DNA from: Hamadaea tsunoensis DSM 44101
GTDB taxonomy: Bacteria; Actinomycetota; Actinomycetes; Mycobacteriales; Micromonosporaceae
Assembly (NCBI RefSeq): GCF_000428945.1
Contig: NZ_AUAX01000006.1
Span: forward strand, 248,001 to 312,000
DNA length: 64,000 nt
Direction of reading: 5' to 3'
Part shown: in pieces, positions 10,457-40,146 of the stretch
Numbering within the stretch: the stretch's first letter is position 1
Layout: every line of letters starts with the position of its first letter
Notes under the pieces: generated by a model
What the model was told of the DNA's origin: nothing
Seen by the model: the letters and a program-made list of their open reading frames with translations, nothing else
Databases searched by the model: none
Translations under genes and position numbers: made by a program

Positions 10457-10537
10457 CAAGATCTGGTTTGGATCACGGTTGTCACCCGAATCATGGCCCA
10501 AGATTCGGGTGATTTCCCTGATCCGAACGGGATCGAG
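10457..10537. repeat. 81-bp palindromic element, copy 1
   Basis: This is the most diverged of three copies. The outer arms are imperfect, but the inner arms TCACCCGAATC and GATTCGGGTGA are perfect around a nine-base loop. Spacers CGGTTG (left) and TTTCCC (right) are asymmetric and define the orientation, here forward. It lies 15 bases 3' of the LOG gene stop and before the zinc-ribbon gene. Confidence 0.85.
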
Positions 10538-10551
10538 ACACAGCGAGGGGG

Positions 10552-11721
10552 TCAGCTGAGGAGGAGGTCGGCCGCCTCGTCGACGGAGTCGGTGATGTGG
10601 ATCAGCCCGGCCAGGTCGCCCAGCGGCGAGCTGCGCAGCAGCGGTGCCAGCAGCTCCGCCACGGGCAGCTCGCGCGTCCAGAAGTCGCGGCCGAGGAAGA
10701 CGAAGGGGCCCGAGTGCTCCTCGATGCCGTAGAACGTCATCGTCGCCGCCTGGAACACCTCCTGCACCGTGCCCGCGCGGCCCTCGGCGAAGACGATGCC
10801 GCCCCGGGAGAGCTTGAGGATCAGCTCCTCCCGCGAGGCGTTGCTGAACAGCTTGCCGATCTGGGCGGCGAACAGGTTGGCCGGCTCGTGCCCGTAGAAC
10901 CACGTCGGTATGGCGAGACCCCCGCGCTTCTCCCAGCTCGTGGCGGGATCCGCGGCGAACTTGGCGCGGACGGCGAGGGCGGCGGCGGTGTAGGGGTCGG
11001 CCTGGTGGAAGTCGTCGACCAGGGCCAGTTCGTCGATCGCGGCGCCCAGGTCGGCGGCCGGCCGCGCGGCCAGGTACGCGCCGAGGTTGGCCGCCTCCAT
11101 CACGCCGGGGCCGCCACCGGTCACGACGAGCCGCCCCGCCCCCGCCAGCCGGTACGCCAGCCGGGCGGCGTCGCGGTAGCCGGCCGATCCGCGCCGGGCG
11201 GCGTGCCCGCCCATGATCCCGACGATGGCGGCCGGCCCGTTCTCGGCGACCCACCAGTCCGTCTCGGCCGCGAGGGCGTTGTCGATGCCGTGGTCGTGGA
11301 TCCGCTGGGCGAGCGCCTCGCGCAGGTCCGGCGTGGCCCCGCCGTGCTCGACGTAGTGCCGGTAGACCACCGCGTCGTACATCGTCGCGACGCCGCCGGT
11401 CTCGAAGCCGGCCGCCAGGTCCTCGGGCGTGTACAGGTGGGACGGCTGCGTCGGGTACGGCGTGTCGACGAAGATCGGCACCACGTGGGCGCCGCCGCGG
11501 ATCAGGGCGGCGATCTGGGCGTCGGTCAACCGGCAGCCGACGAGGAGGGTCCCCGTCACGTCCACTGCGGACAGTTCGACGGCGGTGAGATCGAGGCCCT
11601 GCACGGTCAGACCGGCCAGGCTGCGGCGGCTCAGGTGGTCGGCGAGTTCGGCGGGCGACTCGACCTCGTGGGGGCTGTGGTCGATCGGAGTGATGACCTC
11701 GGGCCGGGGAATCGGGGGCAC
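10552..11721 (-). CDS. LOG family (Rossmann-like) protein
   Basis: The 389-residue protein belongs to the lysine-decarboxylase-like or LOG fold. Plant LOG enzymes release free cytokinin bases from nucleotides, and bacterial relatives are nucleotide phosphoribohydrolases. The signature here reads GGGPGVMEAANLGAY near residue 200, with EGRAGTVQEVFQA near 325 in place of the classic PGGxGTxxE. It is longer than minimal LOG proteins (about 200 residues) because of a 150-residue N-terminal region, so it belongs to the larger subgroup with unknown substrate. The start is GTG, seven bases after a TAGGAT box. Confidence 0.85.
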   Translation of the reverse strand: MPPIPRPEVITPIDHSPHEVESPAELADHLSRRSLAGLTVQGLDLTAVELSAVDVTGTLLVGCRLTDAQIAALIRGGAHVVPIFVDTPYPTQPSHLYTPEDLAAGFETGGVATMYDAVVYRHYVEHGGATPDLREALAQRIHDHGIDNALAAETDWWVAENGPAAIVGIMGGHAARRGSAGYRDAARLAYRLAGAGRLVVTGGGPGVMEAANLGAYLAARPAADLGAAIDELALVDDFHQADPYTAAALAVRAKFAADPATSWEKRGGLAIPTWFYGHEPANLFAAQIGKLFSNASREELILKLSRGGIVFAEGRAGTVQEVFQAATMTFYGIEEHSGPFVFLGRDFWTRELPVAELLAPLLRSSPLGDLAGLIHITDSVDEAADLLLS

Positions 11722-11728
11722 GACGGAA

Positions 11729-11734
11729 ATCCTA
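11729..11734 (-). promoter_or_regulatory. Candidate -10 box for leaderless LOG gene
   Basis: On the minus strand TAGGAT is followed by seven bases and then the GTG at 11721. No ribosome-binding sequence intervenes. Confidence 0.5.
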
Positions 11735-11958
11735 GGCCCGCCGCCGGACCACGAGATCGGCGAGACGCGCCCGAGAAGCCCGACGGGGCCCGGCGCTCAC
11801 GCACCGGACCCCGCGTTACCGGGTCCTGGGGAGGCTCCGGACCTCCAGTTATACGCTCATCAACCTCGTCGCAATAGTGGCCGCAAGCGGGACGCTCGGC
11901 TCACCCGATCGCGTTCGGCGCAACTCCGTTCGGCGCGAGGAACCAGTGGTGCCCGGTA

Positions 11959-11964
11959 TAGCGT
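11959..11964 (+). promoter_or_regulatory. Candidate -10 box for DUF3151 gene
   Basis: TAGCGT lies six bases before the ATG at 11971. GAGG in the same spacer could also serve as a short ribosome site. The rest of the 249-base gap between divergent genes holds a twofold GTTCGGCGC direct repeat and nothing else clear. Confidence 0.4.
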
Positions 11965-11970
11965 TGAGGC

Positions 11971-12378
11971 ATGCAGAACCTGCTCCCCGAGCCTCCCGCG
12001 ACCCTGTTGCCCGCCAACGAGCCCGCAGCCGCCGCGCTGGCCGCCGCCGAAGACCCGACCCAGGTCGCCGCCGACTTCCCGACGTTCTCGGCCGCCTGGG
12101 CGGCGCTGGCCGTCCGGTCGCTCGCCGCCGGGCAGCCCGTTCCGGCGTACGCGTTCGCGCGTACCGGGTATCACCGGGGGCTGGACCAGCTGCGCAAGGC
12201 CGGTTGGCGGGGATCCGGGCCGGTGCCCTGGTCGCACGAGCCGAACCAGGGCTTCCTGCGCTGCCTGAGCGCCCTCGCCGAGGCCGCCGACGCGATCGGG
12301 GAGGCCGAGGAGGCCGCCCGCTGCGCCCAGTTCCTGCGCGACTGCGACCCGGTCGCCGCCGACGCCCTGGCCGGCTGA
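11971..12378 (+). CDS. DUF3151 family protein
   Basis: The 135-residue protein matches the actinobacterial DUF3151 family by its Pro-rich start (LLPEPPATLLP), the GYHRGLDQLRKAGWRG segment and the following PVPWSHEPNQGFLRCL. It is soluble and mainly helical. The family is widespread in actinobacteria and no biochemical role is known. It sits between a LOG gene and purD, which is convergent with it 38 bases away. Confidence 0.87.
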   Translation: MQNLLPEPPATLLPANEPAAAALAAAEDPTQVAADFPTFSAAWAALAVRSLAAGQPVPAYAFARTGYHRGLDQLRKAGWRGSGPVPWSHEPNQGFLRCLSALAEAADAIGEAEEAARCAQFLRDCDPVAADALAG

Positions 12379-12416
12379 CCGGCGACCGAGCCGGAATCAG
12401 CGCCGGATAAAGGGAA

Positions 12417-13637
12417 CTAGGCCACCTTCGCCGCGATGTCGGTGCGGAACTGGGCGCCGTCCAGGTGCACGTTCCGCACCTTCGCGTACGCCTGCTCGCG
12501 GGCCTCGGCCAGCGTCGCGCCGGTCCCCGTGCACGCGAGTACCCGGCCGCCGGCGGCGACGAGCCGGCCGTCGCGTACTCCCGTGCCCGCGTGGAAGATG
12601 CCCGGGGCCTCGGCGCCGGTGATCACGTCTCCCGAGCGGACCTGGCCGGGGTAGCCCGCCGCCGCGACCACGACGGTGACCGCCGCGCCCGGGGACCAGG
12701 CGAGCGGGGGGTGGGCGGCGAGCGTGCCGGTGGCCGCCGCGAGCAGCAGGCCGGCCAGCGGCGTCTCCAGCAGGGAGAGGACGACCTGGGTCTCCGGGTC
12801 GCCGAAGCGCGCGTTGAACTCGATGACCTTGGGGCCGTCGGTGGTGATCGCGAGGCCGACGTAGAGCAGGCCGGCGAACGGCGTGCCCCGGCGGCGCATC
12901 TCGGCGAGGGTCGGCTCGACCACGTCGCGCAGCACGACCGGCACCAGGTCCGGACTCGTCCACGGCAGCGGGCTGTAGGCGCCCATGCCGCCGGTGTTCG
13001 GGCCCTCGTCGCCGTCGCGCAGCCGCTTGAAGTCCTGCGCGGGCTGCAGCGGCACGGCGGTCGTCCCGTCGGTCACCACGAACAGCGACACCTCCGGACC
13101 GTCGAGGTACTCCTCGATCACCACCCGGCCGCACGCCGCCGCGTGCGCCAGCGCGGCCGCGCGGTCGTCGGTCACGACCACGCCCTTGCCCGCGGCCAGC
13201 CCGTCGTCCTTCACCACGTAGGGGCTGCCGGTCTTGTCCAGCGCCGCCGCTGCCTCCTCCGGCGTTTCACAGGTGTACGCGCCGGCGGTGGGCACGCCCG
13301 CCGAGGACATCACGTCCTTCGCGAACGTCTTCGAACCCTCGATCCGGGCAGCCGCCCGGCCCGGGCCGAACACGGGGATGCCGCGCTCGCGTACGGCGTC
13401 GGCGACTCCGGCCACCAGCGGGGCTTCGGGGCCGACGATCACGAGATCGGCGCTCTCGCGTACGGCGAGGTCGGCCACGGCCGCCGGGTCCATCGGGTCG
13501 ACGGCGGCCAGCCGGGCCACCTGGGCGATGCCAGGGTTGCCGGGGGCGGCGATGAGTTCGGTGACCGCGGGGTCCTTCGCCAGGCTCGCCGCGAGGGCGT
13601 GCTCCCGCCCACCCGTGCCGATCAGCAGTACGCGCAT
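12417..13637 (-). CDS. purD: Phosphoribosylamine-glycine ligase
   Basis: PurD joins glycine to 5-phosphoribosylamine with ATP, the second step of purine synthesis. The 406-residue protein has the N-terminal [10 protein letters not shown] motif and the ATP-grasp lid [13 protein letters not shown] near residue 130. The GGMGAYSP loop and the metal-site [12 protein letters not shown] near residue 275 are also present. Length is normal. The ATG at 13637 is the family start; the frame upstream is noncoding. A TAGGCT box lies eight bases before it. Other purine genes in the window (purA, purB, purSQL) lie in separate units. Confidence 0.95.
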
Positions 13638-13724
13638 GTCTGCCGAGCCTACCGAAGCGGTGTCGGGCCACGGCGACACGGCCGGGAGGGTGTGATCCTT
13701 CGGGGTGCCCCCGCCACCGACGGT

Positions 13725-13765
13725 GGTGATCTTGCCGCCGACGAGGGGTGATCTTGCCACCGACG
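13725..13765. repeat. Short tandem direct repeat upstream of purD
   Basis: A 19-base unit starting GGTGATCTTGCC occurs at 13725 and again at 13747, with one mismatch and a 22-base period. A CCACCG-A-CGGTGG dyad lies just left of it. It sits in the 250-base gap between divergent purD and the lamin-tail gene; no further structure is clear in that gap. Confidence 0.55.
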
Positions 13766-13887
13766 GGTGAGGGTGGACGCCGGCGCGGGTGACCGCCCGG
13801 AGGTGATTCACGGAGTGGGGACTATGCCCAGGTCAGGACGGTAGGAAGCATGGGTCGCAGCCCCGAACCCCAACGGAAGGTTCCGTC

Positions 13888-14337
13888 ATGCTCCGACGCT
13901 TGCCCGTCCTGCTCGCCCTGCTGGCCGCCGCCGTCGTACCGGCCGCGCTGACCGCCACCCCGGCGAGCGCGGCGACGCCCAGCATCATGATCACGAAGGT
14001 GCTGGTGAACCCGTCCGGCTCCGACACGACCGCGAACTCCCAGCTCGTACGCGAGTACATCGTGCTCAAGAACACGACGCGGGGCAGCATCAACCTCAAC
14101 CACTGGACGGTCCGGGACCGCAGCAACCACGTCTACACGTTCGGCAGCCTCACGCTCGGCGCCGGCAAGTCCGTCACCCTGCACACCGGCAAGGGCGCGA
14201 ACACCTCGACCAACCGCTACTGGGGCCTCGGCTGGTACGTCTGGAACAACACCGGCGACGGCGCGTACGTGCGCAACTCCGCGGGCAAGTCGATCGACTC
14301 GTGCTCGTGGGGCAGCGTGTCGGTGACCTACTGCTGA
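13888..14337 (+). CDS. Secreted lamin-tail domain protein
   Basis: The 149-residue protein has a signal peptide (basic start, hydrophobic core, cleavage near ATPASAA at about residue 29). The mature part is a single lamin-tail-like beta domain. Features include REYIVLKNTT, LNHWTVRD, a TFGSLTLGAG turn and WNNTGDGAYVRN. These domains occur in secreted actinobacterial proteins, often with nucleases or adhesins, but here the domain is alone. Two C-terminal Cys may form a disulfide. GGAAGG precedes the ATG. Its stop directly abuts that of the convergent regulator gene. Confidence 0.87.
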   Translation: MLRRLPVLLALLAAAVVPAALTATPASAATPSIMITKVLVNPSGSDTTANSQLVREYIVLKNTTRGSINLNHWTVRDRSNHVYTFGSLTLGAGKSVTLHTGKGANTSTNRYWGLGWYVWNNTGDGAYVRNSAGKSIDSCSWGSVSVTYC

Positions 14338-15099
14338 TCAGGGACGACTCGGCGGGGCGGGCGGTTCCTCGCCCGCCCCGTCCGGCGTGAGGGGCCGGCT
14401 GCGCAGGATCTCGCGGGCCTGCTCCGCGGCGCGGGTGATGCTCTCGCTGATGAAGTCGAGGAACCGGGCGATGTTCTCCAGCCGGTGGGCGGCCGGCGTC
14501 TGCGCGCCGAGCAGGCCGACGCCCTGGCGCGCGATCGCGACGAGCTGGTCGTTGGCCCGGGCGCTGGAGATCGTCGCCTGGTAGAAGAGCTCGTCGTCGA
14601 CGATGTAGCGGTCGCGGCGGCGCTCGTCGCGCTCCCGCCGGACGAGGCTCTGGCTCTCCAGGAAGGCGATCGCCTTGGAGACGGACGCCGGGCTGACCTG
14701 GAGGCGCTGGGCCAGCGCGGGCGCGGTGAGGCTGCCCGCGTCGGTGACGAACAGCAGCGTCAGCACGCGGGCGGACATCTTGGGCAGGCCCGACGCCATC
14801 AGTACGGTCGTGAGCGTCTCCTCGTACTCGGCCAGTGCCGCCGCGTCGCGCCCGTCCTGCGGCGCCGCCGACCCGGACGGGCGGGCGGCGGCCGGGCGGC
14901 GCCGGTGGGCCCGGCGTTCGGTGGCGCGGTGCGCCAGTTCGGCCCGGTACGCCGTCGGCCCGCCGTTGCGCATCACCTCCCGCGTGACCGTCGAGGTGGG
15001 ACGGTCGAGGCGGCGCGCGATCTCCGCGTAGGGAAGGTCGTCGGCCAGCCCCACCGCGATCTGCTGGCGTTCGGACTGGGTGAGTCGGCCGCCCGGCAT
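14338..15099 (-). CDS. Two-HTH transcriptional regulator (IS30-type HTH plus MarR/GbsR-type domain)
   Basis: The 253-residue protein has two DNA-binding regions. Residues about 5-50 resemble the HTH of IS30-type proteins (LPYAEIARRLDRPTSTVTREV). Residues about 95-170 form a MarR/GbsR-like winged helix (LTAPALAQRLQVSPASVSKAIAFLE, then a wing with DERRRDRYIVDD). The C-terminal helices probably dimerise. The ATG at 15099 follows GGGAGACC; a longer reading lacks a ribosome site. It is divergent from the DUF4097 gene, and the 253-base gap is full of GCAACG motifs, so it probably controls both genes. Confidence 0.85.
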   Translation of the reverse strand: MPGGRLTQSERQQIAVGLADDLPYAEIARRLDRPTSTVTREVMRNGGPTAYRAELAHRATERRAHRRRPAAARPSGSAAPQDGRDAAALAEYEETLTTVLMASGLPKMSARVLTLLFVTDAGSLTAPALAQRLQVSPASVSKAIAFLESQSLVRRERDERRRDRYIVDDELFYQATISSARANDQLVAIARQGVGLLGAQTPAAHRLENIARFLDFISESITRAAEQAREILRSRPLTPDGAGEEPPAPPSRP

Positions 15100-15176
15100 C
15101 GTGGTCTCCCTGGTTGTGGTCGTGTCTTGTGTTCGTGTCGCGGGACCGCGCGGGGTCACCATAGCGTTCACTCGCT

Positions 15177-15305
15177 ATCCATTGCAACGTCGGCGCATTC
15201 TCGCGTTGCCTTGATCTCTGATCCATTGCAACGAAATCAGCAACTTTACGTGCTGAAATGCCGATGCTGTGCAACGAAGCTGTTGCCGCAATCTAGAAAG
15301 CAACG
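15177..15305. promoter_or_regulatory. Operator cluster with repeated GCAACG motifs
   Basis: The divergent gap contains ATCCATTGCAACG twice (15177-15189 and 15221-15233, exact). It also has CGTTGC at 15204-15209, the dyad GCAAC-N6-GTTGC at 15271-15286 and GCAACG again at 15300-15305. The region is AT-richer than its surroundings. The arrangement suggests several bound dimers of the neighbouring regulator. Confidence 0.6.
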
Positions 15306-15352
15306 TAGCGTTTCCCATGTCAGAAACACCGACCCGAACATGGGAGAGCACG

Positions 15353-16018
15353 ATGCAGAAGTTCGACAGCCCGGCCCCGATCTCCGCCGTCCTGGCCATC
15401 CCGGCCGGCCGCATCCAGGTCATCGCCGCCGAGCGCGCCGACACCACCGTCGAGGTCCGCCCGGCCGACCCGGGCAAGAACCGCGACGTCCAGACCGCCG
15501 AGCAGACCACCGTCGCGTACGCCGACGGGGTGCTGCGGATCTCGGCTCCGGAGCCGCGCAACAGCCTGATCGGCGCGACCGGATCGGTGGAGATCACCGT
15601 TCAGGTGCCGGCCGGGTCCCACGTCGAGGGCAGGACCGCCGGCTCCGAGCTGCGCGGTGTCGGCCGGCTCGGGGACGTGGTCTTCGAGGGCGCGTACCGG
15701 CAGATCAAGATCGACGAAGCGGCGAGCGTACGCCTGACCGCGGTCGACGGCACCGTCGAGATCGGCCGGCTGAACGGCCCGGCCGAGATCACCACGGCCC
15801 GGGGCGACATCCGGATCACCGAGGCGGTACGCGGTTCGGTGGTGCTGCGTACGCAGTCCGGCGACATCTCGGTCGGCGCCGCCACCGGTGTGTCGGCCGT
15901 CCTGGACGCCGGTACCAGCTTCGGCCGGATCAGCAGCAACCTGCGCAACGCCGGAACCCCGGAGCTGAACATCCACGCCACCACCTCGCACGGCGACATC
16001 ACCGCCCGTGCGCTCTGA
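15353..16018 (+). CDS. DUF4097 family beta-solenoid-like protein
   Basis: The 221-residue protein matches DUF4097-type adhesin-like proteins. It shows repeated short strands with alternating Gly and Asp/Glu turns (for example VDGTVEIGRLNG, ARGDIRITEAV, QSGDISVGAA). No signal peptide is visible, so it is probably cytosolic. Several actinomycetes pair such a gene with a divergent MarR-like regulator, which is the arrangement here, but no biochemical function is known. The ATG at 15353 follows GGGAGAG; in-frame starts further upstream lie among the operator motifs and are unlikely. Confidence 0.82.
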   Translation: MQKFDSPAPISAVLAIPAGRIQVIAAERADTTVEVRPADPGKNRDVQTAEQTTVAYADGVLRISAPEPRNSLIGATGSVEITVQVPAGSHVEGRTAGSELRGVGRLGDVVFEGAYRQIKIDEAASVRLTAVDGTVEIGRLNGPAEITTARGDIRITEAVRGSVVLRTQSGDISVGAATGVSAVLDAGTSFGRISSNLRNAGTPELNIHATTSHGDITARAL

Positions 16019-16039
16019 TCACGCGTACCACTCAGGCGA

Positions 16040-16071
16040 CCGGCCTGCTGGGCATGGGCCCGGCAGGCCGG
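16040..16071. terminator. Bidirectional hairpin between DUF4097 gene and purA
   Basis: CCGGCCTGC and GCAGGCCGG form nine perfect pairs around a GC-rich loop that can pair further (GGG/CCC). It lies between convergent stops at 16018 and 16091. Confidence 0.7.
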
Positions 16072-16090
16072 CGGCGGTCAGCGTGATCCT

Positions 16091-17443
<1,353 letters not shown>

Positions 17444-17507
17444 TCAGGCTAACAAGTCGATCAGGTCTGCGGTGTCACAGGCCATGGCACAGGCCACAGG
17501 GAGAATC

Positions 17508-18470: not shown

Positions 18471-18498
18471 CCGCCACCGCCCGCCCCCGTCTTCCGGC

Positions 18499-18565
18499 GA
18501 TCTTGCGCGAATGTTCGGGCCTCTCGGACATATCCGGGCAGCCAGTGAGACTTTCGCGCAAGATC
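18499..18565. repeat. 67-bp inverted-repeat element, different from the 81-bp family
   Basis: GATCTTGCGCGAA (18499-18511) and TTCGCGCAAGATC (18553-18565) are perfect 13-base arms. Inside, ATGT and ACAT form a smaller dyad. It lies between two plus-strand genes and lacks a T tract. It shares only the CAAGATC end with the 81-bp element. Confidence 0.65.
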
Positions 18566-18625
18566 CATCTATGTGTCCGTTGTGGAATGGCTGGTCGGGG
18601 GCCTGGCGTTACAGAGTGAAGTGGC

Positions 18626-22410: not shown

Positions 22411-22468
22411 CCAAGATCCCGCTGGGGCCCGTCGCCAAGATCCCGCCGGTTAGCAGCCAAGATCCCGC
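22411..22468 (+). repeat. Three tandem CCAAGATCCCGC motifs
   Basis: CCAAGATCCCGC occurs at 22411, 22435 and 22457, spaced 24 and 22 bases. The third copy forms the left end of the 81-bp element copy 2. The two extra copies look like partial remnants of that element's arm. Confidence 0.7.
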
Positions 22469-22538
22469 TTGGATCAGGGAAATCACCCGAATCTTGGTCC
22501 ATGATTCGGGTGACAACCGTGATCCAAACGGGATCTTG
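22458..22538. repeat. 81-bp palindromic element, copy 2 (inverted)
   Basis: The outer 19-base arms match in 18 of 19 positions. The inner arms TCACCCGAATC and GATTCGGGTGA are perfect around a nine-base loop. Spacers GGGAAA (left) and CAACCG (right) are the reverse complement of those in copy 1, so this copy is in the opposite orientation. It lies 40 bases 3' of the acyl-CoA dehydrogenase stop. Confidence 0.92.
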
Positions 22539-22578
22539 TGGGGTCGGTACGGCCCAGGTCGGTACGGCCCGAGGACGG

Positions 22579-23796
22579 TCAGCGCAGCGCCATCCCGGAG
22601 ATGTTGCGGGCGATCACCAGCCGCTGGATCTCGCTGGTGCCCTCGAAGATGGTGTAGATCTTGGCGTCCCGGTACCAGCGCTCGACCGGGTGTTCGCGGG
22701 TGAAACCGGCCCCGCCGAGGATCTGCACGGCCCGGCTCGTCACGTCGACGGCCACCTCGCCGGCCTTGAGCTTGGACATCGAGCCCTCGCCGGCCAGGAA
22801 TGGCCGGTTGTTGCGGCCCATCCAGGCGGCCCGCCAGACGAGCAGGCGCGCGGCGTCGATCTCCATCTTCATGTCGGCCAGTTGGAAGGCGATGCCCTGG
22901 TTCTCGATGATCGGGCGGCCGAACTGCACGCGCGTCTTGGCGTACTCCAGGGCGTATTCGAAGGCGGCCCGGGCGATGCCCAGCGCCTGTGCCCCGACGG
23001 TCGGCCGGGACAGCTCGAACGTGCGCATCGACGCCTGGCCGCCGGTACGCTCGCCGGACCGGGCCTTGCCGAGCCGGTCCAGCAGCCGCTCCCGGCCGCC
23101 GAGCAGCTGGGAACCGGGGATCCGGACGTCGTCGAGGAAGACGTCGGCCGTGTTGGAGGCGCGCAGGCCCAGCTTCTTGAGCTTCTTCGTGGCCTGGAGT
23201 CCGGGCGTGTCCGGCCCGATGACGAAGGCGGCCTGGCCGCGGCTGCCCAGCGACGGATCCACCGACGCCGTGACCACGTGGACCTTGGCGATCCCGCCGT
23301 TGGTCGCGTACGCCTTCTGGCCGTTCAGGACCCATTCGTCGGCGGCCTCGTCATAGACGGCCCGCGTACGCATCGCGCCGACGTCGGAGCCGGCCTCGGG
23401 CTCGGTCGAGCAGAACGCCGCGGTGGCGGGCGTGTCGACCGTGCCGAAGCACTGCGGGATCCACTCGGCGAGCTGTTCGGGGCTGCCGTTGCCGAAGATC
23501 GCGGCGACCGCGAGCGAGGTGCCCATGATGGACATCGCGATGCCGGCGTCGCCCCAGAAGAGCTCCTCGCTCGCCAGGCACAGCGACAGGCCGGACGGGT
23601 CCGACCAGGTGTTGGCGAGGAACTCGAACCCGTACAGGCCGATCTTCGCCGCCTCCTGGATGACGGGCCACGGGGTGTCCTCGCGCTCGTCCCATTCGGC
23701 GGCGGCCGGGCGCACGACGTCGGCGGCGAAGCCGTGCACCCAGTCGCGCAGGTCGGTCTGCTCCTCGCTGAGATCGAGGGAGAACTCAGCGGCCAT
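22579..23796 (-). CDS. Acyl-CoA dehydrogenase
   Basis: This flavoenzyme family oxidises acyl-CoA to the 2-enoyl form in fatty acid degradation. The 405-residue protein has the expected order: N-terminal helices (FSLDLSEEQTDLRDWVHGF), the middle FCSTEPEAGSDVGAM segment and the YAKTRVQFGRPI motif. Near the end it has QILGGAGFTREHPVERWYRDAK and the catalytic-base region YTIFEGTSEIQRL. Chain-length preference is unknown. It starts two bases after the SCP2 stop (TGA-TC-ATG), so the pair is cotranscribed. The TetR operator lies upstream of the SCP2 gene. Confidence 0.94.
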   Translation of the reverse strand: MAAEFSLDLSEEQTDLRDWVHGFAADVVRPAAAEWDEREDTPWPVIQEAAKIGLYGFEFLANTWSDPSGLSLCLASEELFWGDAGIAMSIMGTSLAVAAIFGNGSPEQLAEWIPQCFGTVDTPATAAFCSTEPEAGSDVGAMRTRAVYDEAADEWVLNGQKAYATNGGIAKVHVVTASVDPSLGSRGQAAFVIGPDTPGLQATKKLKKLGLRASNTADVFLDDVRIPGSQLLGGRERLLDRLGKARSGERTGGQASMRTFELSRPTVGAQALGIARAAFEYALEYAKTRVQFGRPIIENQGIAFQLADMKMEIDAARLLVWRAAWMGRNNRPFLAGEGSMSKLKAGEVAVDVTSRAVQILGGAGFTREHPVERWYRDAKIYTIFEGTSEIQRLVIARNISGMALR

Positions 23797-33391: not shown

Positions 33392-33411
33392 TCGCGGTAG
33401 TGCCAACGCCG

Positions 33412-33442
33412 GGTCCCGTCCTGCTCCGTGCAGGGCGGGACC
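33412..33442 (+). terminator. Hairpin after metallopeptidase gene
   Basis: GGTCCCGTCCTGC and GCAGGGCGGGACC form a 13-base stem with one wobble, around a TCCGT loop, about 20 bases after the stop. A short TTTG follows. Confidence 0.7.
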
Positions 33443-33530
33443 TGCGTTTGTACGCATCCGGGAAGCCATCTTGAGGTGGCTCCGAGGTTCGGCCGAGCAG
33501 CCTCCGAGTGCGATTCGCCATTGTGCCGCC

Positions 33531-34736
33531 ATGCGATTCCTGCGACGACGTACATTCCTGATCAACGGTGCGCTGGGCGTGCTGCTGGTCGGCGGGCTGG
33601 TATGGGCGTACCTGGCGGTCAAGGGGACCGGTACGACGCCCGCCGCGGCCTCGTCGACGCGTACCGGCACCGTCGCGCAGGGCACCGTCACCGAGACCGT
33701 GACCGCCTCCGGCACGGTGGCCAGTGCCAACGTCATGAACCACAATTTCGTCACCTCGGGGACGGTCACCTCGATCAGCGTCGCCCTCGGCCAGAAGGTC
33801 ACCAAGGGGCAGGTGCTGGCGAAGGTCGACGACACCGACGCCGCGGCCGACCTGGCGACGGCCAAGGAGAACCTGAGCGCGGCCGAGGACGCCTACACCC
33901 GGGCGAAGGACGCCGCCGACGGCGACACCTCCGCCGACGCGGTCAAGCAGGCGCAGCGTACGGTCAACAGCGCGCAGAACGCCGTGGACAGCGCGCAGCG
34001 CGCGGAGAACGGCACGGTGCTCAAGGCCGGGATGGCCGGCACGGTGACCACCCTGAGCGGAACGGTGGGCGGCTCCTCCAGCGGGTCGAGCAGCAGCTCG
34101 GGCGGCACGGGCTCGACCGGTGGCGGCGGCACGGGATCGTCTTCCAACTCGTCCAGTTCGTCCAGTTCGTCGAGCGCCTTCATCGTCATCTCCGACATGG
34201 CCAAGCTGCAGGTCTCGGCGAGCGTCCCGGAGGCGGACGCGACCCGCCTGCAGCTCAAGCAGGGCGCCCAGGTCACCTGGAACGCCCTGGCGAACACGTC
34301 GGTCGAGGGCACGGTCTCCTCGATCTCGCCCACCTCGACGACCAGCGGCGGTGTCACCTCGTACCCGATCGTCGTCAGCCTGAACACGGTGCCCGCGGGT
34401 GCGAAGCTCGGCCAGTCCGTCTCGCTGAGCGTGGTCGTCGCCGAGGCGAAGGACGTGCTCTACGTACCGGCCGCGGCGGTCAAGTCGGCCGGGAACATCA
34501 AGACGGTCACCGTGATCACCGATACCGGCGCGCAGCAGATCCAGCCGGTCACCATCGGTGTCGAGGGCGACTCGTACACCGAGATCAAAGAGGGCCTGAC
34601 CGTCGGCCAGAAGGTCGTCATCGCGACCGTCACCAGCACCACCGGGACGACGAACTTCCCCGGCGGCGGCCAGTTCCCCGGCGGCGGGTTCGGCGGCGCG
34701 GGCACCGGTGGCGGCGGCTTCGGCGGCAACCGATGA
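33531..34736 (+). CDS. MacA-type adaptor with Ser-rich hairpin
   Basis: The 401-residue protein is anchored by one N-terminal segment (about residues 8-27) and has the adaptor plan: a split lipoyl-like domain near 50-100 (SGTVTSISVALGQKVTKGQVLAKVDD), a helical pair, then a beta barrel and C-terminal domain. The hairpin tip is a Ser/Gly-rich stretch of about 40 residues. The C-terminal tail is a Gly/Phe repeat. The ATG at 33531 has no ribosome site. It overlaps the ATPase gene (ATGA), and together with the permease it forms a MacAB-like transporter. Confidence 0.88.
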   Translation: MRFLRRRTFLINGALGVLLVGGLVWAYLAVKGTGTTPAAASSTRTGTVAQGTVTETVTASGTVASANVMNHNFVTSGTVTSISVALGQKVTKGQVLAKVDDTDAAADLATAKENLSAAEDAYTRAKDAADGDTSADAVKQAQRTVNSAQNAVDSAQRAENGTVLKAGMAGTVTTLSGTVGGSSSGSSSSSGGTGSTGGGGTGSSSNSSSSSSSSSAFIVISDMAKLQVSASVPEADATRLQLKQGAQVTWNALANTSVEGTVSSISPTSTTSGGVTSYPIVVSLNTVPAGAKLGQSVSLSVVVAEAKDVLYVPAAAVKSAGNIKTVTVITDTGAQQIQPVTIGVEGDSYTEIKEGLTVGQKVVIATVTSTTGTTNFPGGGQFPGGGFGGAGTGGGGFGGNR

Positions 34737-35458
34737 AGGCCGTCATCGACGTCCGCGACCTCGTGAAGACCTACGGCGAGGGCGAGGCCACGGTCCACGC
34801 GCTCGCCGGGGTCTCCCTCACGATCAACCGCGGCGACTACGTGGCGATCATGGGCTCCTCGGGCTCCGGCAAGTCGACCCTCATGCACATCCTCGGCTGC
34901 CTCGACATCCCCACCTCCGGCAGCTACCTGCTCGACGGCGTGGACGTCAGCCGGCTCAACGACCGCCAGCTCGCGCTCGTGCGCAACCGCCGGATCGGCT
35001 TCGTCTTCCAGGCGTTCAACCTGATCCCCCGCACCAGCGCCGTCGCCAACGTCGAGCTTCCCTTGGCGTACGCGGGAGTCAAGGCGTCCGTACGCCGGAA
35101 GCGGGCCCTCGCGGCGCTGGACATGGTGGGTCTGGGCAACCGCGCGGACCACGACCCGAACCAGCTCTCCGGCGGCCAGCAGCAGCGGGTCGCCGTGGCC
35201 CGCGCGCTGGTGAGCGAGCCGGCGCTGCTGCTGGCCGACGAGCCGACGGGCAACCTGGACAGCAAGTCGACCGCGGACGTGCTCGCGGTGCTGGACCAGA
35301 TCAACCGGGAGGGACGCACGATCGTGCTGATCACCCATGAGGACGAGGTGGCGCACCACGCCCGCCGGGTGATCCGGCTGAAGGACGGCGAGATCATGTC
35401 GGACGTACGGCAGCGGGCCATCCAGGACGAGCGGGACGAGGTGCCGTCGTGGGCCTGA
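34733..35458 (+). CDS. ABC transporter ATPase, MacB type
   Basis: The 241-residue protein is a complete ABC ATPase. Walker A is GSSGSGKST at residues 41-49. The Q-loop is in FVFQAFNL, the signature motif LSGGQQQRVAVARAL is near 145 and Walker B LLLADEPTGNLD near 168. The H-loop is LITHE. It belongs to the LolD/MacB/FtsE group that powers transport of lipids, peptides or drugs. It starts within the adaptor stop (ATGA) and its end overlaps the permease by ten bases, so the three are one unit. Confidence 0.94.
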   Translation: MKAVIDVRDLVKTYGEGEATVHALAGVSLTINRGDYVAIMGSSGSGKSTLMHILGCLDIPTSGSYLLDGVDVSRLNDRQLALVRNRRIGFVFQAFNLIPRTSAVANVELPLAYAGVKASVRRKRALAALDMVGLGNRADHDPNQLSGGQQQRVAVARALVSEPALLLADEPTGNLDSKSTADVLAVLDQINREGRTIVLITHEDEVAHHARRVIRLKDGEIMSDVRQRAIQDERDEVPSWA

Positions 35459-36648
35459 TGGAGATCTTCAAGTTCGCCCTGCGGGGCATCAGCGCGAACA
35501 AGCTGCGCTCCAGCCTGACGATGCTCGGCATCCTGATCGGTGTCGGCGCGGTCATCCTGCTGGTGGCGGTCGGCAACGGATCGAAGGTGGAGGTCGAGAA
35601 GAGCCTGCAGGGCCTCGGCACCAACACCCTCACCGTCAGCAGCGGCCGGGCGATCCGCAGTTCCACCTACAGCACCGACCTGACGCTGTCCATCGTGGAG
35701 GCGTTGAAGGACAAGAACGCCGCGCCGGACATCCTGAGCGTCTCGCCGGTCGTGCAGAGCTCCCAGACCCTGACGTACGGCTCGACGGACCACACGACCA
35801 CGGTCATCGGCACCTCGACCGACTACATCCAGGCGTCGAGCGGCAAGATCGCGACGGGTGAGGCGTTCAACGCGGACGACGCGGCGAAGGCGGAACGCGT
35901 ACTGGTGATCGGGCAGACGACCGCGACGGAGCTGTTCGGCAACGAGGATCCGCTCGGCAAGCAGGTCAGCGTCGGCGGCCAGATCTTTACCGTCATCGGC
36001 ACGCTGCAGAAGAAGGGCTCGACCGGGTTCAACGACCCGGACGACACCGCGATCGCGCCGCTCTCGGCCGTGCAGCGGGCACTGACCGGCTACGGGCCGG
36101 TCAACTCGATCACCATCGAGGCCGTCAGCGCCGACGCGGTGTCCGCCGCCCAGGCCGAGGCCACCGCCATCCTGAACACGAAGATGCACGTTACCAGCAC
36201 CTCCAACACGCCCTATCAGATCCGGTCGGCCTCGCAGCTGCTGGAGACGCGTACGGCGACGGCGGAGACGTTCACGACACTGCTCGGCGCGGTGGCGGCC
36301 ATCTCGCTGCTCGTCGGCGGCATCGGCATCACGAACATCATGATGGTGACCGTCACGGAGCGTACGCGCGAGATCGGTATCCGCAAGGCGCTCGGCGCCC
36401 CTCGCCGGGTCATCCTGACCCAGTTCCTGCTGGAGGCGACGATGCTCTCGCTCGTCGGCGGCCTGCTCGGCGTGGCCGGCGCCTTCATCGGCGCGAACTT
36501 CCAGATCACGGGCATCACGCCGGTGATCGTGCCGAGCTCGGTGGTGCTCGCCCTCGGCGTGTCCGTCGCCATCGGGCTGTTCTTCGGCAGTTATCCGGCG
36601 AGTCGCGCCGCGGGACTGCGCCCCATCGACGCACTGCGGTACGAGTAG
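35449..36648 (+). CDS. ABC transporter permease, MacB type
   Basis: The 399-residue protein has an N-terminal membrane segment (about residues 20-42), a long extracellular MacB-type domain (about 45-270) and three C-terminal membrane segments in the FtsX-like domain. The family motif MMVTVTERTREIGIRKALGA lies after the second of these helices. It pairs with the ATPase at 34733 and the adaptor at 33531. Substrate unknown, possibly a peptide or lipid. The GTG at 35449 has GAGG seven bases upstream; the ATG at 35458 is also possible. Confidence 0.92.
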   Translation: MGLMEIFKFALRGISANKLRSSLTMLGILIGVGAVILLVAVGNGSKVEVEKSLQGLGTNTLTVSSGRAIRSSTYSTDLTLSIVEALKDKNAAPDILSVSPVVQSSQTLTYGSTDHTTTVIGTSTDYIQASSGKIATGEAFNADDAAKAERVLVIGQTTATELFGNEDPLGKQVSVGGQIFTVIGTLQKKGSTGFNDPDDTAIAPLSAVQRALTGYGPVNSITIEAVSADAVSAAQAEATAILNTKMHVTSTSNTPYQIRSASQLLETRTATAETFTTLLGAVAAISLLVGGIGITNIMMVTVTERTREIGIRKALGAPRRVILTQFLLEATMLSLVGGLLGVAGAFIGANFQITGITPVIVPSSVVLALGVSVAIGLFFGSYPASRAAGLRPIDALRYE

Positions 36649-36660
36649 GAGATGCAGGAC

Positions 36661-37224
36661 ATGAGCAAGCACGCAACGGCCGGCCAGGTCAGCGAGCCCG
36701 ACGTCGAGATCGACGACACGGCCCCGATCGACGATCTCGCCGTCGGCCTGGCGCGCGCGGAGCGCAAGCAGTGGATGACGCGTACGACGGTGATCCTGGG
36801 CGGGCTCGTCCTCATCACGGCCGGCTTCATCGGCGGTGTGCAGGTGCAGAAGGCCAACGGCAGCTCGACGGCGGCGAGCACCCCCGGCGCGAACCGGGGC
36901 ACCGGCGGCCGCAACTTCGAGGGTTTCGGCGGCGGCAACTTCCCGGGCTTCGGCGGCACGGGCACCGGCAACGGCGGCACGGGTACGGGTGCCTCGTCGC
37001 GCAACGCCACCACCGGCAAGATCAAGCTGGTCGACGGCAACACGGTCTACGTGGAGCTGACCGACGGCACGGTCGTCACGGTGAAGGTCTCGGACACCAC
37101 CAAGATCTCCTCGGCCGCGACCATCTCGGTCAAGGACCTCAAGGCCGGCGCCTCGGTCACGGTCCAGGGCCAGGAAGGCTCGGACGGGACCATCGCCGCG
37201 GGTTCCATCACGGCCACCAAGTAG
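36661..37224 (+). CDS. Membrane-anchored DUF5666-like protein with Gly/Phe-rich linker
   Basis: The 187-residue protein has an acidic cytosolic N terminus (about 1-35), one membrane segment (about 40-62), a Gly/Phe/Asn/Thr-rich linker (about 70-110) and a C-terminal beta domain (GKIKLVDGNTVYVELTDGT, then VSVKDLKAGASVTVQG). The beta domain resembles the small DUF5666 type, which is often found near transporters. ATG at 36661 is chosen because AGGAG lies nine bases before it; the ATG at 36652 is too close to that site. It ends the MacAB-like unit. Confidence 0.78.
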   Translation: MSKHATAGQVSEPDVEIDDTAPIDDLAVGLARAERKQWMTRTTVILGGLVLITAGFIGGVQVQKANGSSTAASTPGANRGTGGRNFEGFGGGNFPGFGGTGTGNGGTGTGASSRNATTGKIKLVDGNTVYVELTDGTVVTVKVSDTTKISSAATISVKDLKAGASVTVQGQEGSDGTIAAGSITATK

Positions 37225-37240
37225 CTCCCCGGCGGGGGAA

Positions 37241-37270
37241 GGGCCGCGGGGACACCCGTCCCCGTGGCCC
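37241..37270 (+). terminator. Hairpin after MacAB-like unit
   Basis: GGGCCGCGGGGAC and GTCCCCGTGGCCC form a 13-base stem with one wobble around an ACCC loop, 17 bases after the last stop. No U tract follows. Confidence 0.7.
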
Positions 37271-37310
37271 CGGCCGACCCGCCGACGCCCGTGGCTGGTA
37301 GTGGTGGGAC

Positions 37311-37823
37311 ATGACGATTCACAGCGAGGACCCGTTCGCGACGCCGGAAGAGCAGCGCTCCCCGGTACGCCGGCTGCGTGGCCGGGCAGCGGCGGCGGTG
37401 ACGTTGTGGACCGCCGGTGAAGGAACGGGCCGGGCCGGGCTGACGGTCTCGTCGGCGCTCGTCGCGGACGGGCAACCCGGTCGGCTCCTCGGCCTCGTGG
37501 ACGACGAGTCGGACTTCTGGGCCGCCGCGCGACCGGCCGGGCGGTTCGCGTACGCGCTGCTCGGCCCGGACGACAAGCAGCTCGCCGACCGGTTCGCGGG
37601 GCTGCTGCCGGCGCCGGGCGGCCTCTTCCTCGATCCTGTGTGGACACAGACGGCGTACGGGCCGGTGCTGGCGAGCGCGTCGGCATGGGCGGGCTGCCGG
37701 ATCGACGACGCCCGCGGGTTCGGCTGGGGCCTGCTCGTCGAGGCGACGATCGAGGAGATCACGCTGGGTCCGGCCGCGCCGCCGCTGCTGTATCACCGCG
37801 GCCGGTACCGGGAGTTGCCCTGA
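37311..37823 (+). CDS. Flavin reductase-like domain protein
   Basis: The 170-residue protein resembles the split-barrel FMN-binding domain. There is an early AVTLWTAGEGTGRAGLTVSS segment, where such proteins start their flavin site, and a later RFAYALLGPDD. It is shorter in its second half than typical flavin reductases and lacks a clear C-terminal motif. It may reduce or hold flavin, but activity is not shown. The ATG has no strong ribosome site. It stands between the MacAB unit terminator and the acetate permease genes. Confidence 0.7.
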   Translation: MTIHSEDPFATPEEQRSPVRRLRGRAAAAVTLWTAGEGTGRAGLTVSSALVADGQPGRLLGLVDDESDFWAAARPAGRFAYALLGPDDKQLADRFAGLLPAPGGLFLDPVWTQTAYGPVLASASAWAGCRIDDARGFGWGLLVEATIEEITLGPAAPPLLYHRGRYRELP

Positions 37824-37868
37824 CGCTCCTGACCCGGCGTCGCCGGCCGGTCACCGTGCGCCCAGTGG

Positions 37869-37884
37869 TGTGACTCAGGTCACT
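37869..37884. promoter_or_regulatory. CRP/GlxR-like site upstream of DUF485-actP
   Basis: TGTGA-CTCAGG-TCACT matches the CRP consensus TGTGA-N6-TCACA except for the last base. It lies about 140 bases upstream of the DUF485 gene. A TAGGGT at 37962-37967 may be the -10. Acetate uptake genes are CRP-family targets in related bacteria, so the site is plausible. Confidence 0.5.
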
Positions 37885-38024
37885 CGGCGCAGTGGGCCGA
37901 CCGTTCGGCGCATCGGCCGACGCCCACCGGTCAACGCCTAGGTCAACGGTCGCGACCAGCCTAGGGTCCGCAGGCACCCGGCCCGAACGTCTGCGGGCCT
38001 CGCGCTCCCGGCGGTGATCTACCG

Positions 38025-38372
38025 ATGACCACGGCTCCACCTCCCGAAGCACCACCTGCCACCGACGACTCGTACGCGGCGGTCCAGCAGTCGCCCGAGT
38101 TCCAGTCGTTGCGCCGAGCCCTTCGCAGGTTCGTCTTCCCGATGACGGTCGCCTTCCTCCTCTGGTACGCCCTCTACGTCGTGCTGTCGGCGTACGCCCG
38201 GGACTTCATGGGCAAGGTCCTGTTCGGGAACATCAACGTGGCCCTCGTCTTCGGGCTGCTGCAGTTCCTGAGCACCTTCCTCATCGCCTGGGCGTACGCC
38301 CGGTTCGCCGACCGCAACATCGACGGCCAGGCCGACGCGATCAAGGCCCGGATCGAGGGAGGAGACCAGTGA
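38025..38372 (+). CDS. DUF485 domain membrane protein
   Basis: The 115-residue protein has a short polar N terminus, two membrane helices (about residues 45-67 and 78-100) and a basic tail. DUF485 proteins usually lie directly before acetate/cation symporter genes, as here, and probably help that permease. The RRALRRFVFPMTVAFLLWY segment is family-like. Its stop overlaps the symporter start (GTGA), so the two are translated as a pair. No clear ribosome site precedes the ATG. Confidence 0.9.
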   Translation: MTTAPPPEAPPATDDSYAAVQQSPEFQSLRRALRRFVFPMTVAFLLWYALYVVLSAYARDFMGKVLFGNINVALVFGLLQFLSTFLIAWAYARFADRNIDGQADAIKARIEGGDQ

Positions 38373-40015
38373 CCAACGCCCGTACGCTCACGATCATCCT
38401 GTTCCTCGTCCTGGTGGCGGTGACGCTGGGCATCACGATCTGGGCCAGCCGCCAGACCCGGACGGCGACGGACTTCTACGCCGGCGGCCGTTCGTTCTCG
38501 GCCTTCCAGAACGGCATGGCGATCGGCGGCGACTACATGTCGGCGGCGTCGTTCCTCGGCATCGCCGGCCTGATCGCGCTGTTCGGCTACGACGGCTTCC
38601 TCTACTCCATCGGCTTCCTGGTCGCCTGGCTCGTGGCGCTGCTGCTGGTGGCGGAGTTCCTGCGCAACGCGGGCCGCTACACGATGGCCGACGCGCTGGC
38701 GTTCCGCCTCAAGCAGCGCCCGGTACGCGCGGCCGCCTCGCTCTCGACGGTCGTCGTGTCGATCTTCTACCTGATCGCCCAGATGGTCGGCGCCGGTTCG
38801 CTGGTCGCCCTGCTGCTCGGGATCAAGCCGGGCTCGACCTTCCTCGGCATGTCGGCGGACACGGCCAAGGTCGCCACCATCATCCTCATCGGCGCCCTGA
38901 TGATCGTCTACGTGGTCGTCGGCGGCATGAAGGGCACCACCTACGTGCAGATCGTCAAGGCGTTCCTGCTCATGGGCGGGGCCATCCTGATGACAATCCT
39001 GGTGCTGTCGGCGTACAAGTTCAATCTGTCGAGCCTGCTCGGCGCGGCGGCGGAGAAGTCGGGCAGCGGCTCGGCCTTCCTGGAGCCGGGCCTGCGGTAC
39101 GGCAAGGAGGTCGCGGGCAACGCGACGCAGACCTTCTACAACAAGATGGACCTGCTCTCGCTCGGCCTGGCGCTCGTGCTCGGCACGGCCGGCCTGCCGC
39201 ACATCCTGATCCGGTTCTACACGGTGCCGACGGCGCGGACCGCACGCCGCAGCGTGCTGTGGGCGATCGGCATCATCGGCCTGTTCTACCTGCTCACCCT
39301 GGCGCTCGGCTTCGGCGCGGCGGCGATGGTGGGCGGCAAGGCGATCAAGGCGCAGGACGCGGCCGGCAACACCGCGGCCCCGCAGCTCGCCGAGGCGCTC
39401 GGCAAGCGGTTCCTGGGCGGTGACGTCGGCGGCGCGTCGCTGCTGGCGGTGATCGCGGCGGTCGCTTTCGCCACGATCCTCGCGGTCGTCGCGGGCCTGA
39501 CGCTGGCGTCGTCCTCGTCGGTCTCGCACGACTTCTACGCCAACGTGGTCAAGCGCGGCCAGGCCACCGAGCGGCAGGAGATCAGGGTCGCCCGGGTGTC
39601 CGCGCTGGTCATCGGTGCGCTGTCGATCGTTCTCGCGATCTTCGCGCAGAAGCTGAACGTGGCGTTCCTCGTCGCGCTCGCCTTCGCGGTGGCGGCCTCG
39701 GGCAACCTGCCGGCGATCCTCTACAGCCTGTTCTGGAAGAGGTTCACGACGGTCGGCGCGACCGCGGCCATCTACGGCGGTCTCATCTCGGCCGTCGGCC
39801 TGGTCGCGTTCTCGCCCGTCGTGTCGGGCGCAGCCACGTCGTGGTTCCCGCACGCGGACTTCGCCTGGTTCCCGCTGTCCAACCCGGGCATCATCTCGAT
39901 CCCGATCGGCTTCCTCTGCGGCTGGATCGGGACCCTGCTGTCCAGCGAGCCCAGCTCCGTCGAGAAGTACGCCGAGCTGGAGGTCCGGTCGATCACGGGG
40001 GCCGGCGCCCACTGA
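38369..40015 (+). CDS. actP: Cation/acetate symporter
   Basis: The 548-residue membrane protein belongs to the solute:sodium symporter family, ActP branch, which takes up acetate and similar small acids. It shows about 13 hydrophobic helices and family segments such as TATDFYAGGRSFSAFQNGMA early, GDYMSAASFLGI, and the later GLPHILIRFYTVPTARTAR. It follows the DUF485 gene with a GTGA overlap. A CRP-like site upstream suggests carbon-source control. A hairpin and an 81-bp repeat element lie just after it. Confidence 0.93.
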   Translation: MTNARTLTIILFLVLVAVTLGITIWASRQTRTATDFYAGGRSFSAFQNGMAIGGDYMSAASFLGIAGLIALFGYDGFLYSIGFLVAWLVALLLVAEFLRNAGRYTMADALAFRLKQRPVRAAASLSTVVVSIFYLIAQMVGAGSLVALLLGIKPGSTFLGMSADTAKVATIILIGALMIVYVVVGGMKGTTYVQIVKAFLLMGGAILMTILVLSAYKFNLSSLLGAAAEKSGSGSAFLEPGLRYGKEVAGNATQTFYNKMDLLSLGLALVLGTAGLPHILIRFYTVPTARTARRSVLWAIGIIGLFYLLTLALGFGAAAMVGGKAIKAQDAAGNTAAPQLAEALGKRFLGGDVGGASLLAVIAAVAFATILAVVAGLTLASSSSVSHDFYANVVKRGQATERQEIRVARVSALVIGALSIVLAIFAQKLNVAFLVALAFAVAASGNLPAILYSLFWKRFTTVGATAAIYGGLISAVGLVAFSPVVSGAATSWFPHADFAWFPLSNPGIISIPIGFLCGWIGTLLSSEPSSVEKYAELEVRSITGAGAH

Positions 40016-40025
40016 CGCTCCGGGG

Positions 40026-40064
40026 GACCTCCTGGGCCGGCCGCTCCGGCGGGCCCAGGAGTCC
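40026..40064 (+). terminator. Hairpin after actP
   Basis: GGACCTCCTGGGCC pairs with GGCCCAGGAGTCC apart from one bulged C. It begins ten bases after the stop. The 81-bp element begins directly after it. Confidence 0.65.
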
Positions 40065-40065
40065 T

Positions 40066-40146
40066 CAAGATCCCGCTTGGATCACGGTCGGCACCCGAAT
40101 CTTGGCTCATGATCCGGGTGATTCACCTGATCCAAGCGGGATCTTG
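40066..40146. repeat. 81-bp palindromic element, copy 3 (perfect outer arms)
   Basis: CAAGATCCCGCTTGGATCA (40066-40084) is an exact 19-base inverted match to the last 19 bases (40128-40146). The inner arms CACCCGAATC and GATCCGGGTG match with one wobble around a nine-base loop. It is the best-preserved copy in the outer arms. It lies between actP and the UDP-xylose synthase-like gene. Confidence 0.92.

Follow-up and report, generated by a model that had tools for sequence, protein, structure and literature searches.

Why does the same palindrome recur three times, outside genes and near their ends, in a 64-kb stretch of Hamadaea tsunoensis DNA (hereafter the window)? The initial annotation had reported an 81-bp element at 10457-10537, 22458-22538 and 40066-40146, and sequence inspection found it at all three places, with perfect 19-nt outer arms in copy 3 and perfect 11-nt inner arms in copies 1 and 2, as described. 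Oriented by its conserved half, copy 2 is indeed inverted relative to copies 1 and 3. Each copy is intergenic and close to a gene end, at gaps of about 13, 38 and 50 nt, respectively. The length needed adjusting: the three copies are real, but the unit is nearer ~83 nt. We call the family F1; its copies and their neighbours in the window are as follows.

10456..10538, plus strand: F1 copy 1, conserved half on the right side; 3' of a SLOG-like gene (10552-11721, minus strand)
18494..18565, no strand assigned: copy of F2, a second palindromic intergenic family in the same genome
22411..22422, plus strand: lone outer-arm piece CCAAGATCCCGC, left of F1 copy 2
22435..22446, plus strand: second lone outer-arm piece CCAAGATCCCGC, also left of F1 copy 2
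22457..22539, minus strand: F1 copy 2; 3' of an acyl-CoA dehydrogenase gene (22579-23796, minus strand)
40029..40061, plus strand: separate inverted repeat CTCCTGGGCC...GGGCCCAGGAG, seen by eye, adjoining and preceding F1 copy 3
40065..40147, plus strand: F1 copy 3; 3' of a sodium:solute symporter gene (38369-40015)

Lone outer arms were enriched around F1, with 13 in 25.6 kb against 19 in the remaining 2.41 Mb.

Using nhmmer and sequence patterns, we found F1 far more often than three times. The half-arm AAGATCNNGNTTGGATCA occurred 340 times in the genome and a reversed control pattern 0 times, so the recurrence is no chance effect. Half-arm matches numbered 509 in the organism's own 9.48-Mb genome, equivalent to ~250 copies, and a looser core pattern detected 226. 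The same looser core was present in three congeners (51 copies in genome G001, and 121 and 97 in the others) and had 0 copies in 350 genomes from 43 other genera of the family. Among the matches listed, all 63 named ones came from two Hamadaea MAGs. With up to two mismatches, the half-arm was found at 12 places in 11 of 353 other family genomes; no F1-like palindrome was seen at the 6 of these 12 places inspected (L121-L124, L130 and L131), and we took these six matches as chance. The exact full pattern had no match in a genome contig collection that may exclude the organism's own genome, and phage and plasmid records gave none at an E value of 0.01. In 180 kb of G001 no stretch of at least 25 nt was covered five times, a negative that we attribute to sampling and sensitivity, since genome-wide G001 has 51 looser-core copies. 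In line with the view that no named family fits, no Rfam family reached its gathering score anywhere in the window. Titles and abstracts revealed no publication describing repeats of this kind in Hamadaea or elsewhere in its family, a search with subscription journals mostly outside its scope. F1 can be described as an intergenic family of repeated hairpins, to date confined to Hamadaea among the genomes searched; as far as we found, the family is undescribed and the kind of repeat is already known.

Placement relative to genes was scored in 2.45 Mb of the genome using a home-made gene caller. The C2, C4, C11 and C17 stretches in this sample were picked where copies were known or adjoined such places. 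The sample held 117 F1 matches, and dropping 9 partial ones left 108 full copies, which were distributed as 60 between convergent genes, 41 in tandem junctions, 4 in divergent ones, 2 in called open reading frames and 1 at an edge. Convergent junctions thus held 60 of 105 copies against 20% of intergenic bases, and divergent junctions 4 of 105 against 32%. The median distance to a gene 3' end was 28 nt (quartiles 17 and 42 nt; n = 161), and in 33 of the 41 tandem cases the nearer end was the 3' end of the upstream gene. Orientation in tandem junctions was indifferent (23 versus 18). Among 64 congener copies, 24 were tandem, 23 convergent and none divergent, with 12 at edges and 5 in called open reading frames. 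Location at gene 3' ends is the strongest F1 signal and suggests that a hairpin, of RNA or of DNA, works at these sites, although purifying selection against insertion into promoters and coding sequence could also produce the bias.

When copies are oriented, one half is nearly invariant and the other variable. The conserved half GATTCGGGTGATTTCCCTGATCC was exact in 84 of the 108 full copies, and the variable half was of the ACGTAATC type in 61; by subtype, 61 variable halves were ACGT-type, 43 were CCCGAATC-type and 4 were other. The usual core reads TGGATCAGGG-9N-GAATCWTG-3N-CAWGATTC-9N-CCCTGATCCA. Because the ACGTAATC-type inner arm pairs with the conserved half solely over AATC/GATT, a perfect 11-nt inner arm belongs to a subtype and not to F1 as a whole. 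F1 measures ~61 nt in congeners and ~83 nt in H. tsunoensis, which has species-specific outer arms. We dropped the idea that asymmetry guards against palindrome instability, as congeners have near-perfect 61-nt palindromes; the one nearly symmetric copy among 22 inspected also speaks against it.

The predicted fold is strong, with a median energy of -53.5 kcal/mol for one strand and -51.9 kcal/mol for the other. A check for paired changes found compensatory ones in the outer arms: at pairs 3, 4, 9, 10 and 12 the observed pairing was reached by 0 or 1 of 300 shuffles. Covariation was absent from positions 21-33 (z -2.4 to 0.9). Among congener elements, Watson-Crick pairing at pairs 12 and 13 was limited to 25 and 24 of 63, one of the 64 having been left out for want of a full flank. 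These paired changes might have arisen with no selection at all, through quasi-palindrome template switching that perfects the arms or through copying from different source elements. The well-supported changes in the outer arms with positions 21-33 unmatched, and the fall of variable halves into few subtypes, would fit such an origin, which we nonetheless consider quite unlikely, as it leaves unexplained both the 3'-end placement and the hairpins at orthologous sites described below. The blocks GATC and AATC.TG are invariant, more so than pairing requires, and this excess suggests an additional sequence-specific partner, either a protein or a copying activity.

On balance F1 is, in our judgement, probably a REP-like intergenic hairpin repeat that takes the place of a terminator at gene 3' ends, whichever way it faces; that it terminates transcription we infer. 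Transcribed from either side, it would yield a long hairpin just past the stop codon, which could serve as an orientation-independent 3'-end module, whether as a transcription terminator or as a 3' trimming or stability barrier, and one hairpin would serve both convergent genes. F1 resembles intrinsic terminators in being a strong hairpin soon after the stop codon, with T-tailed hairpins at some orthologous sites, and departs from them in the conservation of its sequence over ~250 repeats and in the missing T-run (flank composition, 108 copies). The missing T-run, set beside congener hairpins that have T-runs at the same sites, counts against a terminator role. By a short-loop hairpin score, about half of the 210 convergent ends that lack an element carry a strong hairpin, versus 1% of shuffles; 35% of 120 F1 ends passed, a figure that does not rank F1, because the score copes poorly with its internal loops.

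Orthologous sites showed what else can occupy these positions. At the place of copy 1, Hamadaea Bin2.24 (G003) has the 61-nt congener form. A check for empty sites found copies 2 and 3 missing from the congeners, with other hairpins in their stead (by eye): G001, G002 and G003 carry other inverted repeats at the 3' end matching copy 2, and a common T-tailed hairpin (CTTTTCG) at the junction matching copy 3. At the orthologous sites of C17:240763, congener hairpins end in CTTTTCG (G001) and CCTTTC (G003). Conversely, the H. tsunoensis junction corresponding to a core element of Bin8.36 (L278) is occupied by a further palindromic family, F3. Of the 64 congener elements, 10 were set aside for short flanks and another 40 lacked a syntenic counterpart in the sampled sequence; at 10 of the remaining 14 junctions H. 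tsunoensis lacked the core. Presence therefore differs between congeners at orthologous sites, which fits gain and loss. Another inverted repeat precedes copy 3, so copy 3 may not be what terminates transcription at that site.

Among 390 convergent junctions, none held F1 and F2 together (4.3 expected, p = 0.008) and none held two full F1 copies (p = 0.008). Restricting the exclusion test to junctions of at least 80 nt gave 0 versus 6.2, a comparison biased by the element itself lengthening the junction; we prefer the unconditioned test. Tandem junctions showed no avoidance of F1 by F2 (1 versus 0.97 expected), and two or more F2 copies shared 3 convergent, 1 tandem and 1 divergent junction, so one hairpin per junction is no general rule.

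In a further reading, F1 is a BIME-like element acting as DNA between convergent genes, where gyrase or a nucleoid protein would bind it to manage supercoiling and folding of the RNA would be a by-product. Convergent enrichment, indifference to orientation, blocks invariant past pairing needs and a similar placement of REPs as described in PMC3733652 are all compatible with it. We regard it as very unlikely, given that outer-arm covariation preserves pairing and that the other hairpins at orthologous sites, some T-tailed, better match an RNA 3'-end role.

How F1 spread is a separate matter. Y1 transposases are thought to mobilise REPs, and a search for Y1 transposase/RAYT genes (PF01797) that was positive in 5 of 14 controls found none in four Hamadaea genomes. 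H. tsunoensis has two IS110 genes (PF01548), rejected as movers because F1 arms were absent from both 3.4-kb loci. No autonomous partner with F1 ends was noticed in an unsystematic look at the 117 matches in 2.45 of 9.48 Mb. Target-site duplications of 2-6 and 8 nt, at shifts of -3 to +3, never exceeded the maximum of 200 shuffles of right flanks; the mild excesses were 16 versus 10.8 (2 nt, shift -1) and 7 versus 3.6 (3 nt, shift -2), and duplications of old copies could be lost by now. F1 probably spread non-autonomously, and whatever copies it is not a Y1/RAYT transposase belonging to the four genomes. The proposal that the element is mobile or folded was partly supported: high copy number, folding, compensatory changes in the outer arms and presence differences agree with it, and movement by a transposase gained no support from target duplications, Y1 genes or the IS110 loci.

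These results leave some room for a selfish, non-autonomous MITE-like element whose 3' placement reflects the purging of gene and promoter hits or a hairpin-aiming transposase. High copy number and presence or absence between species at orthologous junctions agree with this. So do two split F1 copies with halves 370 and 540 nt apart and other palindromes in between, one of which has an uninterrupted congener ortholog (L223). The missing duplications, Y1 transposase and IS110-linked arms weigh on the other side, as do 3'-end distances that we judged tighter than promoter avoidance alone demands. We consider this account, which is compatible with a 3'-end role, somewhat unlikely.

ERIC, RUP and Correia elements are MITE-like, ~100 nt long, high-copy and intergenic, with inverted-repeat ends. 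F1 shares their general build, but was found without target duplication or a related insertion sequence, and to our knowledge its sequence is not akin to theirs. REPs, as PMC3733652 describes them, are high-copy intergenic palindromes near 3' ends, mostly of convergent or unidirectional genes, with some families species-specific. F1 is likewise intergenic, high-copy and near 3' ends at convergent and tandem junctions; in contrast to REP elements of 20-40 nt, it is a single hairpin of 61-83 nt. REP/REPIN identity was rejected, with no Y1/RAYT gene and no enrichment of GTAG (4 of 108 copies within 6 nt of an end; shuffled mean 3.0) or CGTC (7 of 108; shuffled mean 12.3). REP sequences also serve as insertion sequence targets, according to PMC1525189; some F1 copies similarly have other sequence inside or beside their centre, but it consists of non-coding nested palindromes and not of insertion sequences.

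In a wider and doubtful extension of the REP-like 3'-end reading, several competing palindrome populations in Hamadaea may seize 3'-end slots, with species-specific versions kept even at orthologous sites by concerted turnover, which some copying activity other than Y1 and a co-evolving partner that recognises the sequence would drive. If true, hairpin families would rewrite a genome's set of 3'-end signals. With F1 the intergenic palindromic repeats gain an actinobacterial family, to date observed in a single genus, whose genomes lack Y1 transposase. Its 51 to ~250 copies per genome in four species make it a clean system for asking whether such repeats act as interchangeable 3'-end signals and what copies them.

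All three of the 81-bp palindromic copies that the initial annotation described in the window were found as it had placed them. They belong to F1, a family of intergenic palindromic repeats of about 83 nt, and a search of the whole genome and of related genomes showed that the family extends well beyond them. In the 9,477,227 bases (68 contigs) of the Hamadaea tsunoensis genome, the half-arm AAGATCNNGNTTGGATCA occurs 340 times and a reversed control pattern does not occur; AAGATCCCGTTTGGATCA, with up to two mismatches allowed, gives 509 matches, or about 250 elements. Genes for an AMP-binding enzyme and an NAD-dependent epimerase also flank the window copies.

Copies of F1 in the window
10456..10538, copy 1, 3' of a SLOG-like gene
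22457..22539, copy 2, 3' of an acyl-CoA dehydrogenase gene
40065..40147, copy 3, 3' of a sodium:solute symporter gene

We characterized F1 in a 2.45-Mb sample of the genome that includes the window (contigs C1, C3 and C9 complete, C5 up to 400 kb, and parts of C2, C4, C11 and C17 picked at or adjoining known copies). A profile search yielded 117 matches, 108 of them full length. Once oriented, these copies have an almost invariant right half, with GATTCGGGTGATTTCCCTGATCC exact in 84 of 108, and a variable left half (61 ACGT-type, 43 CCCGAATC-type and 4 other). Median folding energies are -53.5 and -51.9 kcal/mol for the two strands. Compensating changes, as had been claimed, are present at outer pairs 3, 4, 9, 10 and 12, which covary (z 3.4 to 4.5; 0 or 1 of 300 shuffles, values that are not probabilities because the shuffles do not preserve relatedness among copies), but the covariation test was negative at positions 21-33. 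Pairs 5, 6, 8, 11 and 15-20 scarcely vary at all, and the high z of pairs 7, 37 and 39 is due to only one or two copies.

Using gene models from a codon-usage caller written for this analysis, we assigned the 108 full-length copies to 60 convergent, 41 tandem and 4 divergent junctions, with 2 inside called open reading frames and 1 at an edge. Convergent junctions thus hold 60/105 copies versus 20% of intergenic bases, and divergent junctions 4/105 versus 32%. Copies stand a median of 28 nt from a gene 3' end (n = 161). Tandem junctions show F1 closer to the end of the upstream gene in 33 of 41 cases and no preferred orientation (23 to 18).

Among the genomes searched, the family is so far confined to Hamadaea. 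The own-species arm (up to two mismatches) has one or two matches in 11 of 353 other genomes of the bacterial family, and no F1-like palindrome was present at the six inspected of the 12 places with such matches. In the congener G003 (MAG Bin2.24), the ortholog of the copy 1 site carries GATCAGGGTTCGCGGTCGAATCTTGCACCAAGATTCGACCCGGAACCCTGATC, with spacing identical to the F1 core. The core pattern derived from this spacing, GATC-14N-AATCNTG-3N-CANGATT-14N-GATC, has 226 copies in H. tsunoensis and 51, 121 and 97 in the congeners G001, G002 and G003, respectively; it has none in 350 genomes from 43 other genera of the bacterial family, and a reversed control pattern has no match. A named-genome collection contains it in at least 63 stretches, and among the matches listed all come from the Hamadaea MAGs Bin2.24 and Bin8.36. 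The congener form, usually GCGCTGGATCAGGG...CCCTGATCCAGCGC and about 61 nt, matches F1 in placement (n = 64: tandem 24, convergent 23, divergent 0, edge 12, inside a called open reading frame 5) and covaries modestly, at pairs -1, 9 and 11 (0, 3 and 1 of 500 shuffles).

Presence of F1-type elements differs between species at orthologous sites, where hairpins were identified by eye except those computationally folded. At the copy 2 site, F1 is missing from all three congeners; in them this 3' end carries other inverted repeats. At the copy 3 site, they share one hairpin followed by CTTTTCG, and H. tsunoensis carries F1 together with a distinct inverted repeat. The copy 1 site has the congener form in G003 and none in the stretch of G001 examined. 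At the site of C17:240763, a T-tailed hairpin follows the left gene in G001 as well as in G003, and the stretch examined lacks F1 in both; the orthologous junction in G001 (C1:2284900-2286700) also contains a tandem-like repeat block (GGCGTCAGGCGGCCTTGGGCCCGTGCGCTGAGGTGCG...). Fourteen of the 64 congener elements lie in junctions syntenic within the H. tsunoensis sample; F1 occupies four of these and is lacking from ten, some of whose alignments stop inside genes and leave the junction loosely defined. At the four shared sites, every H. tsunoensis copy has the own-species form, a result compatible both with concerted evolution and with elements arriving repeatedly at one slot; four of 14 sites do not suffice to decide between the two, because F1 fills 101 of the 1,707 sampled junctions of convergent or tandem type anyway. 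At locus L278, a congener (Bin8.36) has an F1-type core and the same H. tsunoensis junction holds another family, F3.

At least three further palindromic intergenic families, F2, F3 and F4, occur in H. tsunoensis. F2, with arms CGACGATCTTGCGCGAATGTC, has 410 half-arms (up to two mismatches), or about 205 copies, one of which lies in the window at 18494-18565. No convergent junction (0/390) contains both F1 and F2 (4.3 expected, p = 0.008), and none (0/390) contains two full F1 copies (p = 0.008). Tandem junctions show no avoidance of F1 and F2 (1 co-occurrence versus 0.97 expected), and five junctions hold at least two F2 copies, so avoidance is no strict rule. F3 (TTGTCCCGGGTTCGTCGATCTCACCTCC..., about 120 nt) is repeated in intergenic regions, for example at C5:248572-248757, a junction where a congener carries the F1-type core. 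Another inverted repeat, with GTTGATCATGA arms, is intergenic in congeners (G003:C83 and G002:C536; loci L202 and L203). A few hairpin-forming relatives of F2, apparently close to gene ends as judged by eye, occur in another genus of the bacterial family, g9.

Relatives of F2 in g9
L125, G088:C1
L126, G088:C98
L127, G090:C2
L128, G091:C4
L129, G091:C2

Nine matches in the sample are partial. Four make two pairs, with halves 370 and 540 nt apart, other palindromes in between and the central GAATC.TG region kept in each half; each pair may have arisen by insertion close to the centre or may be two truncated copies. At one pair (L223), the congener element is uninterrupted, and from the sequences compared the separation may be derived in H. 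tsunoensis or may have been undone in the congener. Insertion of IS elements into REPs is reported in PMC1525189, and the separated copies are a partial parallel. The remaining five partial matches are single halves adjoining long nested-palindrome islands. Such intergenic islands span 600-1400 nt, with GATC near many arm ends, and some lie between or beside F1 halves.

Nested-palindrome islands in H. tsunoensis
C1:148549-149573
C1:443268-444693
C1:201980-202730
C2:207091-208137

The flanks of F1 were tested for the target-site duplication that the initial annotation had proposed to look for, and none was found. The four genomes of the genus have no Y1 transposase, and F1 arms were not found near the two IS110 genes of H. 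tsunoensis. Lone arm pieces are concentrated near elements (13 in 25.6 kb versus 19 in 2.41 Mb).

F1 falls within the intergenic palindromic repeats, broadly defined, and its placement agrees with that reported for REPs in PMC3733652. Identity with tagged REPs was rejected, as two defining tests, for the tag and for RAYT, failed. The literature searched contained no description of an F1-type family. Given its place, fold and covariation, and the other hairpins that congeners carry at these sites, F1 probably acts as a 3'-end hairpin that can serve genes on either side, whether as a terminator or in 3' processing or stability. Termination is not proven, because F1 is without the T-run that some congener hairpins at the same sites have and copy 3 stands downstream of another inverted repeat. 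F1 is a real, large family of an already known kind of repeat, and it is of interest for turnover at gene-end slots.
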